From assembly GCA_021779935.1 (NCBI GenBank), contig JAJXZT010000049.1, forward strand, positions 186,001-250,000: a stretch of DNA of 64,000 nt. The letters are read 5' to 3'. The translations under genes were made by a program, and so were the position numbers. Origin of the DNA: Acidobacteriota bacterium. Lineage in GTDB: Bacteria > Acidobacteriota > Terriglobia > Terriglobales > Acidobacteriaceae. Positions 1,340 through 39,540 of the stretch are shown piece by piece (the first letter of the stretch is position 1; each line of letters starts with the position of its first letter). A model generated the notes under the pieces. The model did no database searches, was not told where the DNA came from, and saw only the letters and a list, made by a program, of their open reading frames with translations.

Positions 1340-1870
1340 GGTTTCGGAGGTTTCGGGAGTTTCGGATGTTTCGGAAGTTGGAACGCCGAAGGTTTCGGAG
1401 GGTCGAGTGGGAAGTTCGTATCGCGATTTGATCGTGTGGCAGCGGGCCAAGACACTGGCGGTCAGTGTGTACAGAGCGACCGAGCCGTTTCCGAAGTCTG
1501 AGTTGTATGGGCTCACCTCGCAGATGAGGCGTGCCGGGATTTCGGTTGCGTCCAACATCGCCGAAGGTCAGGGGCGCGCGACGCCCGGCGAGTTTGTCTA
1601 GTTCCTCGGTCATGCACGAGGATCGCTTCTCGAGTTGCAGACGCAGGCGGAAGTCGCGATAGAGCTTGAGTTCTTGACTCGCAATTCAGGTGCGGATCTC
1701 CTGAGGGATTGTGGCGAAGTGCTGTTTCTGCTCAATCGGCTGATGAATTCGCTGACTGGGAAGAGCAAGACGAACATGCGAAGCAGTAATTAACAAAATG
1801 AAGTTTTGGAGATGTTGCCATCGAAGTCTCCGGCAGTGGAACTTCCGAAACTTCCGAAACGTCCGAAACC
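1340..1870. mobile_element. Inverted-repeat element A (531 bp) carrying a broken four-helix-bundle gene
   Basis: The left arm (1340-1366) is made of 9-nt units of the type GTTTCGGAN. The right arm (1844-1870) is its reverse complement with 25 of 27 positions matching. The arms begin 6 nt after the etfA stop and end 9 nt before the hydrolase start, so the element fills the whole gap between the two genes. The interior holds one four-helix-bundle ORF on the plus strand. Its size is almost the same as element B at 2433-2967. No transposase is present, so movement would need a protein supplied in trans. The mobile-element call is an inference from structure and repetition. Confidence 0.6.
1407..1793 (+). 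pseudogene. Four-helix-bundle (23S rRNA IVS-type) protein gene with in-frame amber codon
   Basis: A GTG start opens a frame reading [14 protein letters not shown], then VASNIAEGQGRATPGEFV, which are signatures of the four-helix-bundle family found in 23S rRNA intervening sequences. A TAG at 1599-1601 stops it after 64 codons. The same frame continues with FLGHARGSLLELQTQAEVAI to a TAA at 1791-1793, matching the intact paralogue at 2543-2920. At the TAG the paralogue has CAG (Gln), so one C-to-T change explains the stop. It is either a recent pseudogene or depends on amber readthrough. It lies inside inverted-repeat element A. Confidence 0.8.
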
Positions 1871-1879
1871 AGTATTTTT

Positions 1880-2419
1880 ATGAAACCTCCCGTCGTCTTA
1901 CTTCTTCCCGGTCTGCACAACTCCGGGCCGCAACATTGGCAGACGCTGTGGCAGCCGCAGATCGCCAACTGCGAACGCGTCGAGCAGCGCGACTTCGATC
2001 ATGCCGTCTGCTCCGAGTGGGTGGAGACCATTGAGGCGGCGGTGGAGCGCCACCATGGCAACGTCTTTCTCGTGGGACACAGTTGCGGCACCACGGTAAT
2101 TCCGCACTGGGCCGCGCGCTATCCGCGCAGGATTGCCGGAGCGATGTTGGTGGCGCCGTCGGATACCGAGATGGAAGGTTTCCCGCCGGAGGCCGAAGGC
2201 TTCGCGCCGATTCCGCTCGCTCCGCTGCCGTTCCCCGCGACCGTCGTGGCCAGCAGCAACGATTTCTATTGCCGCATCCGTCGCGCCAAGTTTCTCGCCA
2301 ACGCCTGGGACGCGAAGCTGGTCGAGATCGGCCCGCACGGACACATCAACACCGACGCCGGATTCGGCCCGTGGCCCGGCGGTCTCGAGATGCTGCAAAA
2401 GCTTCTTGCCAAGGTCTAA
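1880..2419 (+). CDS. RBBP9/YdeN-type serine hydrolase
   Basis: This 179-residue protein is a single-domain alpha/beta hydrolase of the RBBP9/YdeN family, probably a cytosolic esterase; the substrate is unknown. It opens VVLLLPGLHNSGPQHW, the family's oxyanion-side motif. The nucleophile elbow is GHSCG with Ser68. The acid is the Asp of ASSNDFYC (about residue 132) and the base is the His of GPHGHIN (about 156). No Shine-Dalgarno sequence precedes the ATG; the right arm of element A ends 9 nt upstream instead. It lies between etfA and the ETF-quinone oxidoreductase gene, separated from each by an inverted-repeat element. Confidence 0.88.
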   Translation: MKPPVVLLLPGLHNSGPQHWQTLWQPQIANCERVEQRDFDHAVCSEWVETIEAAVERHHGNVFLVGHSCGTTVIPHWAARYPRRIAGAMLVAPSDTEMEGFPPEAEGFAPIPLAPLPFPATVVASSNDFYCRIRRAKFLANAWDAKLVEIGPHGHINTDAGFGPWPGGLEMLQKLLAKV

Positions 2420-2432
2420 CGCTTGGTGAGAA

Positions 2433-2967
2433 AGTTTCGAGTTTCAAGTTTCGAGTTTCGAGCAAAGAATTGTGAGCTTACAGTTCTCCAGAATACGAAT
2501 AAGCTCGGACAGTTGAGAACAACGAAACGAAGGGCTCCGTTCATGGCGCATTCATATAGAGAACTCATTGCGTGGCAGAAGGCCAAGGAACTTGCGGTAA
2601 GCGTGTATAGAGAAACCGAGTCTTTTCCAAAGCGCGAAATTTATGGACTCGTGTCACAATTGCGACGGGCGTCAGTCTCTGTGCCATCGAATATCGCTGA
2701 AGGGCAGGGACGAGCCACGCGGGGCGAATTTTCCCAGTTTCTTGGTCATGCACGTGGATCGCTACTTGAGGTGCAGACTCAGTTGGAAATATCGTCGGAA
2801 CTTGGATATATCGACAATCATCGCTTTGTTGCCTTATCCAATAAGAGCGATGAAGTTCTTCGCGTGTTAAATGGCCTGATTGATTCCATGTCGAAGCGAC
2901 CGCCACAGTCGAAATTCTGATCGCTTAAGTTGTTTAACTCGAAACTCGAAACCTGAAACTCGAAACT
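2433..2967. mobile_element. Inverted-repeat element B (535 bp) carrying an intact four-helix-bundle gene
   Basis: The left arm at 2433-2462 (four TTTCGAG-type heptads) and the right arm at 2938-2967 are reverse complements at 29 of 30 positions. The right arm reads as (CTNGAAA)4CT. The element starts 13 nt after the hydrolase stop and ends 5 nt before the ETF-quinone oxidoreductase ATG, so it fills the gap exactly. It carries one plus-strand ORF (2543-2920). Length and layout match element A although the arm sequences differ. Related arms without any ORF occur at 29679-29827 and 6515-6602. Confidence 0.65.
2543..2920 (+). CDS. Four-helix-bundle protein (23S rRNA intervening-sequence family)
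   Basis: The 125-residue protein belongs to the S23/IVP four-helix-bundle family, first described in intervening sequences of 23S rRNA and structurally related to the Avd proteins of diversity-generating retroelements. Its biochemical role is not established. Family signatures are SYRELIAWQKAKELAVSVY near residue 5, SVPSNIAEGQGRATRGEF in the middle and FLGHARGSLLEVQTQLEIS after it. The ATG at 2543 matches the family N-terminus; an upstream in-frame start at 2423 would add residues translated from the repeat arm. Only a weak AAGGG lies upstream. It is the intact sister of the amber-interrupted copy at 1407 and sits inside element B. Confidence 0.88.
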   Translation: MAHSYRELIAWQKAKELAVSVYRETESFPKREIYGLVSQLRRASVSVPSNIAEGQGRATRGEFSQFLGHARGSLLEVQTQLEISSELGYIDNHRFVALSNKSDEVLRVLNGLIDSMSKRPPQSKF

Positions 2968-2972
2968 GTCTT

Positions 2973-4682
2973 ATGATCTTCTTTCGCAAACCGATTCCTG
3001 GCGTCGACCATCCCGTGATGGAAGCCGATGTGGTCATTGTCGGCGGAGGCCCCGCCGGCATGGCCTGTGCGCTCCGTCTTTCGCAACTCATCGACGAGCA
3101 CAACACCGCGCATCCCGACGCGCCCATCTCCAAGGAAAATATCTACGTGCTGGAGAAGGCGCGCGAAGCCGGTGCGCACTCGCTCTCCGGTGCGCTGCTC
3201 GATCCACGGGCGATGAACGAACTGCTTCCCGAGTGGAAGAGCGAAGCGCCCATCGAGGCTGAAGTCTCGCGCGAGAGCGTTTACTTCCTGACGAAGAAGT
3301 CGAAGTTCAAAGCGCCCATCACGCCGCCGCCGCTGCGCGATCATGGCAACTACGTCATCTCGCTCAACCGCTTCGTCAAGTGGATGGGTGGCAAGGTCGA
3401 GGAGACGGGCTTCACGGTCTTCACCGGATTTGCCGGCAGCGAGTTGCTGATTGAGGACGGCAAGGTCGCCGGCGTGCGCACCGACGACAAGGGCGTCGAC
3501 AAACTGGGCGAGCAGAAGGCGAACTTCGAACCCGGCTACGACCTCAAATCGAAGATCACCATCCTCGCCGAAGGTTCGCGCGGTTCGCTCACCAAGCAAC
3601 TCGTCACTCGCTTCGAACTCGATAAGGATCGCAATCCGCAGACCTACGGCGTTGGCGTCAAGGAGTTGTGGGAGATTCCGCCGGGCCGCATCGCCGAAGG
3701 CGAAGTCATCTACACCGCCGGTTATCCGCTCACGTCGAAGGAGTACGGCGGCGCGTGGATTTACGGTGGCAAGAACAACACTATCTCGCTCGGCTTCGTC
3801 ACCGGGCTCGACTACCAGGACCCGCGCACCGATCCGCAACACGTCCTCCAGGCCTTCAAGCAGCATCCGTTTGTGCGGCGAATGCTCGAAGGCGGCAAGA
3901 TGATTCGCTACGGCGCCAAGTCGCTGCCTTACGGCGGATGGCTCTCCATGCCGCCGCTGGCGGGCGATGGTTGGATGATCATTGGCGACTCGGCCAGCTT
4001 CCTCAACTCGCAACGGCTGAAGGGAATCCACCTCGCGCAGAAGAGCGGCATGTTGGCCGCCGAAACTGCGTTCGAAGCACTCGTGGCGAATAATTTTTCC
4101 GCCGCGCAACTCGGCCACTACAAGGAAAAGGTGGACGCAAGCTGGATCAGGAAAGAACTCTACCCGGTGCGCAACTTCCACCAGGGCTTCGAGGGCGGAA
4201 TGCTTCAGGGCATGATTTTCGCCGGGCTGGGACAGGTCACCGGCGGCGGCCTGTGGGACATGAAGGCCCACGCCGGCCACACGCGCATGAAACATCTCAT
4301 CGATGCGATGGGCTGGGGCAGCGGACGCGACCAGTTCCTCGGCTGGGCCAAGGGTGACGGCAAACTGACTTTCGATAAATTGACGGATCTCTATTTTTCC
4401 GGCACCAAGCACGAAGAGGACCAGCCGTCGCATCTCGTCATTGAAGACATCAACATCTGCAACACGCGCTGCCCGAAGGAGTTCGGCAACCCGTGCCAGT
4501 TCTTCTGTCCGGCCAACGTCTACGAGATGCAGGAGAGCGCGGAGCATCCGGGCGCGAAGGAGCTTCACCTCAATCCGTCGAACTGCGTTCACTGCAAAAC
4601 CTGCGACATCATGGACCCGTACCAGATCATCACCTGGGTTCCGCCCGAGGGCGGCGGCGGGCCAAATTACGACGGCATGTAG
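2973..4682 (+). CDS. Electron transfer flavoprotein-ubiquinone oxidoreductase
   Basis: This membrane-associated flavoprotein with a 4Fe-4S cluster takes electrons from reduced ETF and reduces quinone, linking fatty-acid and amino-acid oxidation to respiration. The 569-residue protein shows an N-terminal FAD site (ADVVIVGGGPAGMACALRL, about 17-35), a central quinone/FAD domain, and a C-terminal ferredoxin-like domain with CNTRCPKEFGNPCQFFCP and NPSNCVHCKTCDIMDP. It ends with the family tail GGGGPNYDGM. The ATG at 2973 fits the family start. There is no Shine-Dalgarno sequence, because the right arm of element B ends 5 nt upstream. A Rho-independent terminator follows. Confidence 0.95.
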   Translation: MIFFRKPIPGVDHPVMEADVVIVGGGPAGMACALRLSQLIDEHNTAHPDAPISKENIYVLEKAREAGAHSLSGALLDPRAMNELLPEWKSEAPIEAEVSRESVYFLTKKSKFKAPITPPPLRDHGNYVISLNRFVKWMGGKVEETGFTVFTGFAGSELLIEDGKVAGVRTDDKGVDKLGEQKANFEPGYDLKSKITILAEGSRGSLTKQLVTRFELDKDRNPQTYGVGVKELWEIPPGRIAEGEVIYTAGYPLTSKEYGGAWIYGGKNNTISLGFVTGLDYQDPRTDPQHVLQAFKQHPFVRRMLEGGKMIRYGAKSLPYGGWLSMPPLAGDGWMIIGDSASFLNSQRLKGIHLAQKSGMLAAETAFEALVANNFSAAQLGHYKEKVDASWIRKELYPVRNFHQGFEGGMLQGMIFAGLGQVTGGGLWDMKAHAGHTRMKHLIDAMGWGSGRDQFLGWAKGDGKLTFDKLTDLYFSGTKHEEDQPSHLVIEDINICNTRCPKEFGNPCQFFCPANVYEMQESAEHPGAKELHLNPSNCVHCKTCDIMDPYQIITWVPPEGGGGPNYDGM

Positions 4683-6323: not shown

Positions 6324-6329
6324 TATAAT
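6324..6329 (+). promoter_or_regulatory. Candidate -10 box upstream of the moaA leader
   Basis: A perfect TATAAT lies about 12-15 nt before the start of the predicted riboswitch, which is a plausible distance for a transcription start. No convincing -35 box is visible at 16-18 nt upstream. Confidence 0.4.
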
Positions 6330-6339
6330 AGGCAAATGT

Positions 6340-6475
6340 TTCCGACCTCCGTGGCCTGTGGAATCCCTGGCTGCGGCGGCGATGCCGGTTCCGGCGCGTG
6401 AAGCGCAACCGGTTGAGGGTGCGGCGGGAAACTTCCGCGCCTCCCGTGCTTGGAAAGGAAACGGCGTGCGCGCGT
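6340..6475 (+). promoter_or_regulatory. Molybdenum-cofactor (Moco/Tuco) riboswitch
   Basis: The leader of moaA contains GCCTCCCGTGCTTGGAAAGG at 6439-6458. As I recall it, this closely resembles the conserved 3' core of the Moco RNA upstream of E. coli moaA. A strong stem-loop (CCGGTT/AACCGG with an inner GCGC/GCGC helix) lies at about 6380-6408, and the 5' part starts at about 6341 with CCGACCTCCGTGGCC. Moco riboswitches reduce synthesis of the cofactor pathway when Moco is plentiful. The region between the aptamer and moaA is occupied by an inverted heptad array (6515-6602), so the expression platform looks unusual. Confidence 0.75.
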
Positions 6476-6514
6476 TGTCGTGTCTGCTCGATTCCTCTCC
6501 GAAAAAGAAGGTCC

Positions 6515-6602
6515 TAGGTTCTAGGTATTAGGTACTAGAAAAGACGGTGTACGTTGCGTCCTTCTGCCGTGTCCCTAACACCTAGTACCTAGCACCTAAT
6601 AC
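6515..6602. repeat. Inverted heptad arrays (element C) before moaA
   Basis: The left arm at 6515-6538 has TAGGTNN heptads. The right arm at 6575-6602 consists of four exact-period units CTANNAC. The arms pair at 20 of 24 positions and enclose 36 nt. The right arm ends 3 nt before the moaA ATG and replaces a Shine-Dalgarno sequence. No ORF is present. Confidence 0.75.
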
Positions 6603-6605
6603 CCG

Positions 6606-7595
6606 ATGCCTTTACTCGACAAACACGGCCGCACCATTGTTGACCTGCGAATCTCCGTCACCGATCGCTGCAACTATCGCTGTGTTTATTGCCGGACGGG
6701 CAATGACGGCGCAATCTTTGCCGATCTTTCTTTCGCCGAATATCTGCGCATGGTGCGCGTCTTCGTTTCGCTCGGCATCACCAAGGTCCGCATCACCGGC
6801 GGCGAGCCGCTGCTTCGTCACGGCGTCATCGACTTCGTGCGTGAACTGGCGAAGCTGCGCACCGTGGATGGCGAGAAACTCGATCTCGCGATTACCACCA
6901 ACGGCCACCTGCTGGCCGAGATGGCGCAACCGCTTGTCGATGCCGGGCTCAACCGCATCACCGTCAGCATGGATGCCGTCGATCGCGACGAGTTCACCCG
7001 CATCACCCGCGTGCCCAATGGATACGACAGCGTGCTCGCCGGCATTCGCGCCGCCAAACGCGTGGGACTTGCGCCCGTCAAGGTCAACTGCGTTCTCCTG
7101 CGCGGATTCAATGACGACCAGATTGTCCCATTCGGGCGGTTCGCGCGCGAAGAAGGCGTCGTCGTACGCTTCATTGAATTCATGCCGCTGGAAGAGGATC
7201 GTGTCTGGACGCCGCAGATCGTGGTGCCGCTTGCCGAAGTTGTCGAGCGCATGTCGGCCTACATGCCGTTGCGCCAGATCGATCACGGTTACAGCGAGAC
7301 GGCGCGGCGTTATGTCTTTGAAGATGGCGTCGGCGAAATCGGAGTGATCGCGCCCGTGTCGCTGCCTTTCTGCGGACAATGTTCGCGCATCCGTCTCACC
7401 TCCGACGGCAAAATCCGCACCTGCCTGTTCTCCGTCCGCGAGCACGAACTCTATACCCACATGCTGCGCGGCGCCTCGGATGCGGAGTTGGCCGCCGCCA
7501 TAGAGGCTGCCGTCGCCCAGAAGGAAGCCCGCCACCACATCGGCGAACCCGGCTTTGTCCCCCCTTCGCGCACCATGGTGCATATTGGCGGATAA
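6606..7595 (+). CDS. moaA: GTP 3',8-cyclase (molybdenum cofactor biosynthesis protein A)
   Basis: This radical-SAM enzyme converts GTP to 3',8-cyclo-GTP, the first step of molybdopterin synthesis. The 329-residue protein shows the radical-SAM cluster CNYRCVYC (about 23-30), the GGEPLLR motif, the second 4Fe-4S site LPFCGQCSRIRLTSDGKIRTC (last cysteines of the C-terminal domain), and the C-terminal Gly-Gly (HIGG) needed in MoaA. There is no Shine-Dalgarno sequence; the ATG directly follows a heptad array. Control by the Moco riboswitch upstream is expected. Other moa/moe genes are not in the window. Confidence 0.96.
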   Translation: MPLLDKHGRTIVDLRISVTDRCNYRCVYCRTGNDGAIFADLSFAEYLRMVRVFVSLGITKVRITGGEPLLRHGVIDFVRELAKLRTVDGEKLDLAITTNGHLLAEMAQPLVDAGLNRITVSMDAVDRDEFTRITRVPNGYDSVLAGIRAAKRVGLAPVKVNCVLLRGFNDDQIVPFGRFAREEGVVVRFIEFMPLEEDRVWTPQIVVPLAEVVERMSAYMPLRQIDHGYSETARRYVFEDGVGEIGVIAPVSLPFCGQCSRIRLTSDGKIRTCLFSVREHELYTHMLRGASDAELAAAIEAAVAQKEARHHIGEPGFVPPSRTMVHIGG

Positions 7596-8537: not shown

Positions 8538-8676
8538 CCGCTTTTTCCGGGCTTTTCAGCACCTTAGGCACTCAGTAGCCCAGCAGCTTATTTTTTTAGA
8601 ATTTGCGTCAGAAGCCCTTATTCATGCATCATTAACAGATGAAGTAGATGTCGGCTTCAACAACCCCGCAGGTGGG

Positions 8677-9909
8677 ATGCCGCAAGGCATAGCGCATCGG
8701 CTGGAGCCGCCACAAGCTTTCAACATCCCCGTTCCCGTGGAATCACGCATCAAGTTTCGCGACTCCACGAACGAACTGAAGGCGAGTACAAATTTGGCTA
8801 CTGCAGTGGTTTCGGATTCCTCGTGCTCCCTGGACAATTATCTCGTCCTGCCGGATCACACCATGGATGCGCGCATTGCCGCGGCGCGGGCCGCGCTCGG
8901 CGAACGTTGCGTCATCCTCGGGCACCACTATCAGCGTGACGAAGTGGTGCGTTTTGCGGATTACCAGGGAGACTCCTATCGTCTCTCGCAACAGGCGGCG
9001 AGCGCCCGTGGAGAGTACATCATCTTCTGTGGTGTGCACTTCATGGCTGAAAGCGCCGACATCCTTGCCCGCGCCGACCAGTCCGTCGTACTTCCCGATC
9101 TCAACGCCGGCTGTTCCATGGCCGACATGGCAAACATTGATCAGGTGGAAGATTGCTGGGAGCAACTCGTGCGCCTCGGCATCACCACCGAAGAAGGCAA
9201 GGGTCTTACGCCGCTCACGTACATCAACTCCACGGCGGCCATCAAGGCCTTCTGCGGCGAACGCGGCGGAGCGGTGTGCACGTCGGCCAATGCCACCGGA
9301 GCTTTGCGCTGGGGATTCGCCCGCAACGAAAAAATTCTCTTCATGCCTGACCAGCATCTCGGCCGCAACACTGGTTTCCGCACGGGCATTCCGCTCGACG
9401 AGATGGTTGTGTGGGATCCCTACCAGTTGCAGGGCGGACAAACCGTCGAACGGTTGCGCAAGGCGAAGGTCATTTTGTGGAAGGGCCACTGCTCGGTCCA
9501 CCAGCGCTTCCTGCCGGAGCACGTCGACAAAGTCCGCGCCGCGTATCCGGGCATACAGGTCATTGTCCATCCCGAGTGCCGCTGGGAGGTCTGTCAGAAG
9601 GCCGACGGCATCGGTTCCACCGAGTATCTGCGCAAGGCCGTGGCCGACGCGCCCTCCGGGACACGTTTCGCCATCGGCACGGAAATTCACCTCGTCAACC
9701 GCCTCGCCAGGCAGTTCCCCGACAAGCCGATCATCACCCTCGACGACTCCGGTTGCCTCTGCACCACCATGTATCGCATTTCTCCGCAGCACCTCTGCTG
9801 GGCGCTGGAGAATCTTGTGGGCGGAACCGTGGTCAACCAGGTCAAGGTGAAGGAACCGGTGAAGAAGTGGGCGCGCGTGGCGCTTGATCGCATGTTGGAA
9901 GTGAAATAA
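8677..9909 (+). CDS. nadA: Quinolinate synthase
   Basis: NadA condenses iminoaspartate with dihydroxyacetone phosphate to give quinolinate in NAD synthesis and holds a 4Fe-4S cluster. The conserved core starts at NYLVLPDHTMDARIAAARAA and shows CVILGHHYQRDEV, FCGVHFMAESADIL (first cluster Cys), VCTSANATGAL (second) and DDSGCLCTTMYRI (third). The core of about 350 residues fits the family. The start is uncertain: the frame is open from 8482, and ATG 8677 is proposed with only a GGTGGG just upstream. An internal ATG at 8863 would still retain the catalytic core. nadB and nadC are not adjacent. Confidence 0.94.
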   Translation: MPQGIAHRLEPPQAFNIPVPVESRIKFRDSTNELKASTNLATAVVSDSSCSLDNYLVLPDHTMDARIAAARAALGERCVILGHHYQRDEVVRFADYQGDSYRLSQQAASARGEYIIFCGVHFMAESADILARADQSVVLPDLNAGCSMADMANIDQVEDCWEQLVRLGITTEEGKGLTPLTYINSTAAIKAFCGERGGAVCTSANATGALRWGFARNEKILFMPDQHLGRNTGFRTGIPLDEMVVWDPYQLQGGQTVERLRKAKVILWKGHCSVHQRFLPEHVDKVRAAYPGIQVIVHPECRWEVCQKADGIGSTEYLRKAVADAPSGTRFAIGTEIHLVNRLARQFPDKPIITLDDSGCLCTTMYRISPQHLCWALENLVGGTVVNQVKVKEPVKKWARVALDRMLEVK

Positions 9910-28640: not shown

Positions 28641-29675
28641 ATGGCAAACGTTTTAGACATCCGGCGGCGTATTCGCAGCGTCAAGAGCACGCGGCAGATC
28701 ACCAAGGCCATGAAAATGGTCTCGGCCGCCAAACTCCGCCGCGCCCAGGAGCGCGCCCTCGCCGCGCGTCCTTACGCGCAGATGCTGACGAACGTCCTCA
28801 AATCGCTCGTCACCCGCGCGGACTGCTTCGATCCCGAGACCGGCGAACCGCTCCACCCACTGCTCGTCCAGCGCGAGGAAAAGAACATCCTCGTCATCAT
28901 CGTCACCGCGGATCGCGGACTGGCCGGAGCCTTCAACTCCAACATCATCAAGTCCGCCCAGCGCTTTCTGGAAAGCAAGGGCGGCGTCAACATCGACATC
29001 GAGTGCATCGGCCGCAAGGCGCGCGATTTCTTCCGTCGCCGTTTCCCCATGGAAACCCCCGACGGCCCCCGCAGCGCCCCGGTCCGCATTACCGGCGAAC
29101 ATCCCGGCCTGCTCTCCAAACCTGATTTCGCCACCGTGGAGGAAGTCGCCGAGGACATCATTGGCCGCTACACCCGCAGCGAACTCGATGCCGTCTACGT
29201 GCTCTTCAACGAGTTCAAGTCGGTGATTGCCCAGCGCCTCGTGGTGGAAACCGTGTTGCCCATCTCCCAGATCGGCGAGCGTGACATCCGCCAGGCCGAG
29301 GAGCTTTCGCAGAAGGAACTTGAGCGTGCCGGCGAAGCCGCTGCCGCTGCCGGTGTTTCTCTCACCGAGCCGGATACCGCCGAGATTGATGCGCGTGCCG
29401 CGAAATTCGGTACCGAGCAAGTGGATTACATCTATGAGCAGCCCCCTAAACAGTTGTTTGCCGCGCTGCTGCCCAAGTACGTTTCCGTGCAGTTGTATCG
29501 CTCGGTGCTGGAGTCGGTTGCCGCCGAACATGCCGCCCGCATGACGGCCATGGATTCGGCAACCAACAACGCCACCGACATGATTGACTCCCTGACGCTC
29601 ACCATGAACCGTGCCCGTCAGGCAGCCATCACCAAAGAGATTATCGAGATCGTCAGCGGCGCCGCCGCGTTGTAA
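28641..29675 (+). CDS. atpG: ATP synthase F1 subunit gamma (enlarged)
   Basis: Gamma is the rotating central shaft. It shows the conserved N-terminal helix (NVLDIRRRIRSVKSTRQITK then MKMVSAAKLRRAQ) and the C-terminal helix (RMTAMDSATNNATDMIDSLT). At 344 residues it is about 55 longer than the E. coli protein. Extra residues occur around FPMETPDGPRSAPVRITGEH and in the AGEAAAAAGVSLTEPDTAEI region, both in the outer domain. The stop is followed after 3 nt by the left arm of element D. Confidence 0.95.
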   Translation: MANVLDIRRRIRSVKSTRQITKAMKMVSAAKLRRAQERALAARPYAQMLTNVLKSLVTRADCFDPETGEPLHPLLVQREEKNILVIIVTADRGLAGAFNSNIIKSAQRFLESKGGVNIDIECIGRKARDFFRRRFPMETPDGPRSAPVRITGEHPGLLSKPDFATVEEVAEDIIGRYTRSELDAVYVLFNEFKSVIAQRLVVETVLPISQIGERDIRQAEELSQKELERAGEAAAAAGVSLTEPDTAEIDARAAKFGTEQVDYIYEQPPKQLFAALLPKYVSVQLYRSVLESVAAEHAARMTAMDSATNNATDMIDSLTLTMNRARQAAITKEIIEIVSGAAAL

Positions 29676-29678
29676 AGA

Positions 29679-31276
<1,598 letters not shown>

Positions 31277-33727: not shown

Positions 33728-33757
33728 CTTGAAACTCGAAACCTGAAACTCGAAACT
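33728..33757 (+). repeat. Heptad array H, (CTNGAAA)4CT
   Basis: Four exact heptads (CTTGAAA, CTCGAAA, CCTGAAA, CTCGAAA) plus CT. It shares 27 consecutive bases with the right arm of element B. It follows the dehydrogenase gene fragment, so both were probably copied into this gap. No left arm was found. Confidence 0.7.
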
Positions 33758-36618: not shown

Positions 36619-36620
36619 TA

Positions 36621-36651
36621 CTCGAAACTTGAAACTTGAAACTCGAAACTG
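36621..36651 (+). repeat. Heptad array G, (CTNGAAA)4CTG before the PP2C gene
   Basis: Four exact heptads CTCGAAA-CTTGAAA-CTTGAAA-CTCGAAA plus CTG end 8 nt before the phosphatase ATG, which has no Shine-Dalgarno sequence. No left arm is visible; a REP-like palindrome occupies the upstream side. Confidence 0.7.
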
Positions 36652-39509: not shown

Positions 39510-39540
39510 CTCGAAACTCGAAACTGGAAACTCGAAACTG
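39510..39540 (+). repeat. Heptad array I, (CTNGAAA)4CTG
   Basis: Four exact heptads CTCGAAA-CTCGAAA-CTGGAAA-CTCGAAA plus CTG end 24 nt before the next ATG. The sequence is nearly that of the right arm of element D. No left arm was found. Confidence 0.7.

Follow-up and report, generated by a model that had tools for sequence, protein, structure and literature searches.

What kind of genetic unit fills both gaps of the etfA–hydrolase–etfQO operon? In the window analyzed here, the whole 64,000-nt stretch of DNA under study, etfA (344–1333), a small hydrolase gene (1880–2419) and etfQO (2973–4682), all on the plus strand, are separated by two elements, A (1340–1870) and B (2433–2967). Their coordinates, arm lengths, arm pairing and spacing to the neighboring genes had been given exactly in a preliminary description of this DNA. 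To that account we add the short-period tandem structure of the arms, the probable loss of the gene in A, and the finding that most copies of the array carry no gene. Our reading, to which we assign a probability of roughly 60%, is that A and B are members of a widespread system of a gene plus a dispersed repeat, similar to REP/RAYT and based on a four-helix-bundle torus.

Both elements consist of an IVP/S23-type gene between two arms, each of which is a tandem array of short units. In element A, the left arm (1340–1379, plus strand) starts 6 nt past the etfA stop and comprises four 9-nt units of GTTTCGGAN; the right arm (1840–1870, minus strand) is its inverse complement, pairs at 25/27 positions and ends 9 nt short of the hydrolase start. 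The units of element B are of 7 nt (AGTTTCR): its left arm (2433–2462, plus strand), 13 nt past the hydrolase stop, reads AGTTTCG-AGTTTCA-AGTTTCG-AGTTTCG-AG, that is, 30 nt with five phased AGs, and its right arm (2938–2967, minus strand), 5 nt short of etfQO, is complementary to it at 29/30 positions. Such arrays were absent from all five shuffles of the window, which places the real arms far above chance. One IVP/S23-type gene per element had been described previously. This holds for B, where the gene (2543–2920, plus strand) is intact and encodes 125 aa, whereas the gene in A (1407–1793, plus strand), a PF05635 match (E 1.6e-33) with one TAG, has that in-frame TAG at 1599–1601 in its translation and is therefore a probable pseudogene; element A is probably a decayed copy. 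A recent duplication of A into B was rejected, as both are only ~70% alike and their unit lengths differ. No Rfam family matched at elements A and B.

The IVP/S23 gene family is best known from inserts in ribosomal RNA and, to our knowledge, the function of its proteins is not known, a toroidal structure having been reported since 2006. The protein of element B was assigned to PF05635/TIGR02436 (S23/IVP family), and its closest solved homologue was PDB 2gsc (E 5e-25), reported as a toroidal homopentamer in a passage of PMC4990558 that cites Lin et al. 2006. An NCBIfam scan returned only four-helix-bundle and Avd-like families, with no Y1/HUH transposase, and no known nuclease, transposase or reverse transcriptase domain was found in the IVP protein. 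Values of dN/dS ranged from 0.04 to 0.19 in the computable pairs, stops were present in 4/137 genes and, judged from these sequences, the protein is under purifying selection.

PF05635 was present in 148/200 genomes of the GTDB family, with 1–15 copies per genome. The preliminary description had proposed a search for IVP genes outside rRNA with inverted arms, and had considered that such arms might be absent in relatives. They were not: with an inverted-arm score of at least 12 as the threshold, arms were detected at 123 of the 137 IVP loci with flanks in this family, compared with 13/408 (3%) when left and right flanks were taken from different loci. Self-identity of the arms at lags of 7, 14 and 21 was 0.72, 0.73 and 0.68, respectively, against 0.16–0.28 at other lags, and pairing between the arms of one element followed the units, at 0.89 for arms in register and 0.70 after sliding them by 7. 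Arm polarity was inward in 100 cases and outward in 7. A broader set gave a similar picture, with arms at 70/79 genome-contig loci and 39/47 viral-contig loci; the record titles of the former span at least 10 phyla, although many are metagenome-assembled and single phylum labels need care. Individual loci departed from the common form: the arms of L136 comprised 22 AGTTCTC units, perfectly paired across 155 nt, and four loci (L012, L029, L032 and L106) formed a subgroup with ~14-nt units (about AGCTAAGAAGCGGTC) rather than 7-nt ones.

When registered on the AG, the arrays were mostly 7-nt tandem units with the consensus AGYNNYY. Within-arm variation was 0.018 at position 2 (G) and 0.228 at position 5, and elements differed in unit sequence, with 99 distinct units among the 198 arms. 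The period was not always 7, being 9 nt in A, with 8 and 14 also occurring, and ~15% of the period-7 arms had no AG in the unit consensus, the phased G being mostly kept. The typical arm was ~30 nt long, and the mode of the phased-AG count per arm was five in every set examined: left arms 42/123 and right arms 44/123 in the family, 14/34 in other phyla and 14/39 on viral contigs. Since the AG count peaks at five and the 2gsc homologue is reported as a homopentamer, the five AGs of an arm may match the five subunits of the protein ring. Arm units and proteins were also co-inherited. Among elements at unrelated sites, units were shared (at least 6 of 7 positions) in 93% of pairs at 70–80% IVP identity versus 2% at 40–50% (Mantel p 0.001), which indicates that the IVP gene and its arms move together.

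Arrays were not confined to the flanks of IVP genes. A search for four AGYNNYY units followed by AG in 200 genomes returned 6635 five-AG arrays, against 762 for the reversed-pattern control, both totals being inflated by overlapping matches. The median per genome was 26 with IVP and 0 without IVP; array number followed IVP count with a rho of 0.73, corrected for kinship no further than genus, and the association persisted within genera (r 0.51, permutation p 0.0002). Arms of IVP elements can explain only a minority of these arrays. As exceptions, 13 genomes had IVP and zero arrays; conversely, G025 had 62 five-AG arrays and no PF05635 match, which could mean that the gene is missing from the assembly or that the arrays have outlasted it. 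As loose arrays are common mainly in IVP-bearing genomes, their co-occurrence points to an unrecognised gene-plus-repeat system.

The window itself contains several gene-less copies. An IVP-less hairpin of the AGTTTCR array family (29674–29832, unstranded) and three stand-alone AGTTTCR arrays (33730–33756, 36620–36650 and 39510–39540, all on the minus strand) were located, as was an IVP-less heptamer hairpin with a different unit, AGGTAYT (6517–6603, unstranded). The latter shares a leader with, and lies 3' of, a molybdenum-cofactor riboswitch (6328–6476) upstream of a moaA-like gene (ORF 6606–7595). A nadA riboswitch was also matched twice in tandem (8653–8708 and 8716–8783) at the 5' part of a nadA-like reading frame. 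The source genome holds ~45 further AGTTTCR arrays, mostly solo and usually of four units plus AG; in genome G000, 17/28 further arrays had strictly five AGs. In genome G114, the 15 distinct arrays comprised 10 solo copies and 5 IVP-less hairpins, most of exactly 30 nt.

We propose a system of two components: a ~30-nt array of four AGYNNYY units and a closing AG, dispersed singly or as inverted pairs, and an IVP/S23 four-helix-bundle gene situated between two inward-facing copies of this array. The toroidal pentamer would bind the array in single-stranded form, each subunit taking one AG in a TRAP-like manner, and through this binding would spread or maintain arrays in trans, as RAYT does for REP; copying may be helped by a polymerase, recombinase or reverse transcriptase of the host. 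S23-bearing rRNA intervening sequences would then be insertions of this element in rRNA. The more general form of this proposal is that IVP proteins and five-AG heptamer arrays constitute an unrecognised mobile repeat system that spans many phyla of bacteria, where a pentameric ring, itself no enzyme, reads the five AGs of each array and drives dispersal in trans, with rRNA intervening sequences as a special case; to this we give slightly less than even odds.

The elements occupy a characteristic position next to genes, as delimited by gene calls based on a simple codon-usage heuristic. The stop-facing end lay at a median of +3 nt from the stop codon and the start-side distance had a median of 12 nt with a broad spread, while divergent gaps held just 2/123 elements. 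The abutting stop was TAG in 68/128 cases, against 18/59 for other neighbors, and at many loci the AG of the array completes this TAG. Arrays read AG-first after stop codons, and the stop-codon preference was weaker for IVP-less arrays. The post-stop pattern could partly result from selection against insertions elsewhere.

Comparison of orthologous loci showed these positions in several states. Contrary to the possibility, raised in the preliminary description, that the gaps are vertically conserved with no empty sites, empty gaps were found. Between etfA and etfQO, five genomes of the sample carried IVP elements, and in others the gap measured 0–15 nt (L051, L062, L069, L071 and L075), with 13 nt between etfA and the hydrolase gene in L074; genome G022 has the hydrolase gene in the same operon without A or B. 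Filled, solo-arm and empty states were found in the TrpE–TrpG gap (10 nt in L243). In the HtpX–MoxR and YchF–ZIP gaps, congeneric species had elements in sense or in antisense orientation, elements lacking IVP, or gaps that were empty or nearly so (YchF–ZIP, 21 nt in L216), and units differed at one gap among them. L016 and L019, two species, bear 78% identical elements in opposite orientation in the same HtpX–MoxR gap, which suggests inversion through the arms. Five loci (L208, L213, L221, L222 and L227) have CACAGAG/CACGGAG-type octamer hairpins in the YchF–ZIP gap, which holds IVP elements in related species; these may be a further non-coding member. No target-site duplication could be defined, the ends being ambiguous in the sole usable filled/empty pair (L215/L216).

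Part of this pattern would also suit a domesticated regulatory module, in which the pentamer binds arrays in mRNA, beginning with the 5' arm of its own message, and regulates the neighboring genes at termination or translation, mobility being only historical. The purifying selection on the protein and the AG-first reading after stop codons agree with such a role, as do elements that different species and genera retain in a shared gap and arms that changed little while IVP dS reached about 1 or more (L013/L079 and L133/L152). However, single gaps underwent gain, loss, inversion and unit turnover among members of one genus, and no common class of host gene was seen; we consider regulation as the sole present role unlikely.

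The view of the preliminary description, that the elements are mRNA versions of rRNA intervening sequences whose arms pair in the transcript and are cut by RNase III, so that the operon yields separate messages and the insert is excised, is in our estimation a little less likely still. It draws on the strong predicted fold of the element B transcript (z −4.25), on the sense orientation of 80/97 tandem-gap elements, and on the Coxiella rRNA intervening sequence, whose terminal stem, tandem heptamers (GACAGAT) upstream of the S23 ORF and cleavage by RNase III in vitro have been described (PMC4990558). Nevertheless, the other 17 tandem-gap elements are antisense to both neighbors, and many arrays stand alone, with no second arm to pair with. 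Moreover, arm mismatches were of the G-U type in 125 cases and of the A-C type in 131; as they show no G-U preference, there is no sign of selection for pairing on one RNA strand, and selection on an RNA stem is not supported. The good fold of the transcript stands, and the role of the arms as an RNase III-cut stem is weakened: processing by RNase III may still happen, on arms that bear no RNA-pairing signature.

A third alternative is that the elements are DNA transposons, mobilized by a host transposase that acts on their inverted arms, with the IVP gene as passenger or accessory. Inverted ends, dispersed IVP-less copies and presence/absence at orthologous sites would be expected of it, but end sequences differ between elements, even within one genome, which one would not expect a single end-specific transposase to accept, and array number tracks IVP count; we regard it as quite improbable. 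Neutral slippage of tandem repeats beside genes with an incidental IVP link, as the expanded 22-unit arrays of L136 might suggest, can be set aside on the mispaired-flank and register controls, given that complementarity is element-specific, five AGs is the commonest length and arrays are found together with IVP.

Returning to the REP/RAYT-like system, several known systems share some of its features. Tandem heptamers between genes are described in Beggiatoaceae (TAACTGA; PMC4679880) and G. metallireducens (PMC2700814); by description only, they are short, tandem and dispersed like the arrays here, whereas the accessible parts of both papers draw no link to S23/IVP. A gene-plus-array system may explain this class of intergenic repeats in bacterial genomes. 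Our literature search, which covered few subscription journals, retrieved reports of heptamer repeats and of intervening sequences, and none describing heptamer arms as a general feature of IVP genes.

Avd of diversity-generating retroelements (DGRs) is a pentameric four-helix bundle. The IVP proteins have a weak profile similarity to it (E 6e-4 to 1.6e-7) that does not reach the family cut-off (20–32 bits versus 80), and A and B have metabolic neighbors (etfA, hydrolase, etfQO). In TRAP, a protein ring recognizes NAG triplets that recur at regular distances, the spacers between them being free. The shared logic would be one repeat per subunit; the folds are unrelated, and TRAP reads eleven triplets set closer together, compared with the five AGs spaced 7 nt apart here. 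With a conserved candidate nucleic-acid partner, regular in size, lying beside the gene, S23/IVP function becomes directly testable.

With the rRNA intervening sequences of Leptospira, Coxiella and Brucella, elements A and B share the S23/IVP protein family (PF05635/TIGR02436), terminal inverted repeats predicted to form a stem and a similar size. They differ in lying within a protein-coding operon, between etfA, the hydrolase gene and etfQO, and not inside an rRNA gene; elements here sit just past stops, have AGYNNYY-type arms and belong to arrays of which most copies are gene-less. A 23S core motif, taken as one exact 13-mer, was absent from all 417 loci. The gene-plus-array system suggests an origin for these rRNA inserts. 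A further parallel is REP/RAYT, where a gene is flanked by inverted short extragenic repeats that are also scattered over the whole genome and seldom occur in divergent gaps. The IVP protein, a four-helix bundle, lacks the tyrosine-transposase (Y1/HUH) domain, and its repeat consists of 7-nt units in direct tandem, not of a palindrome with GTAG, but here too the gene has on either side an inverted copy of an extragenic repeat that is dispersed and rare in divergent gaps.
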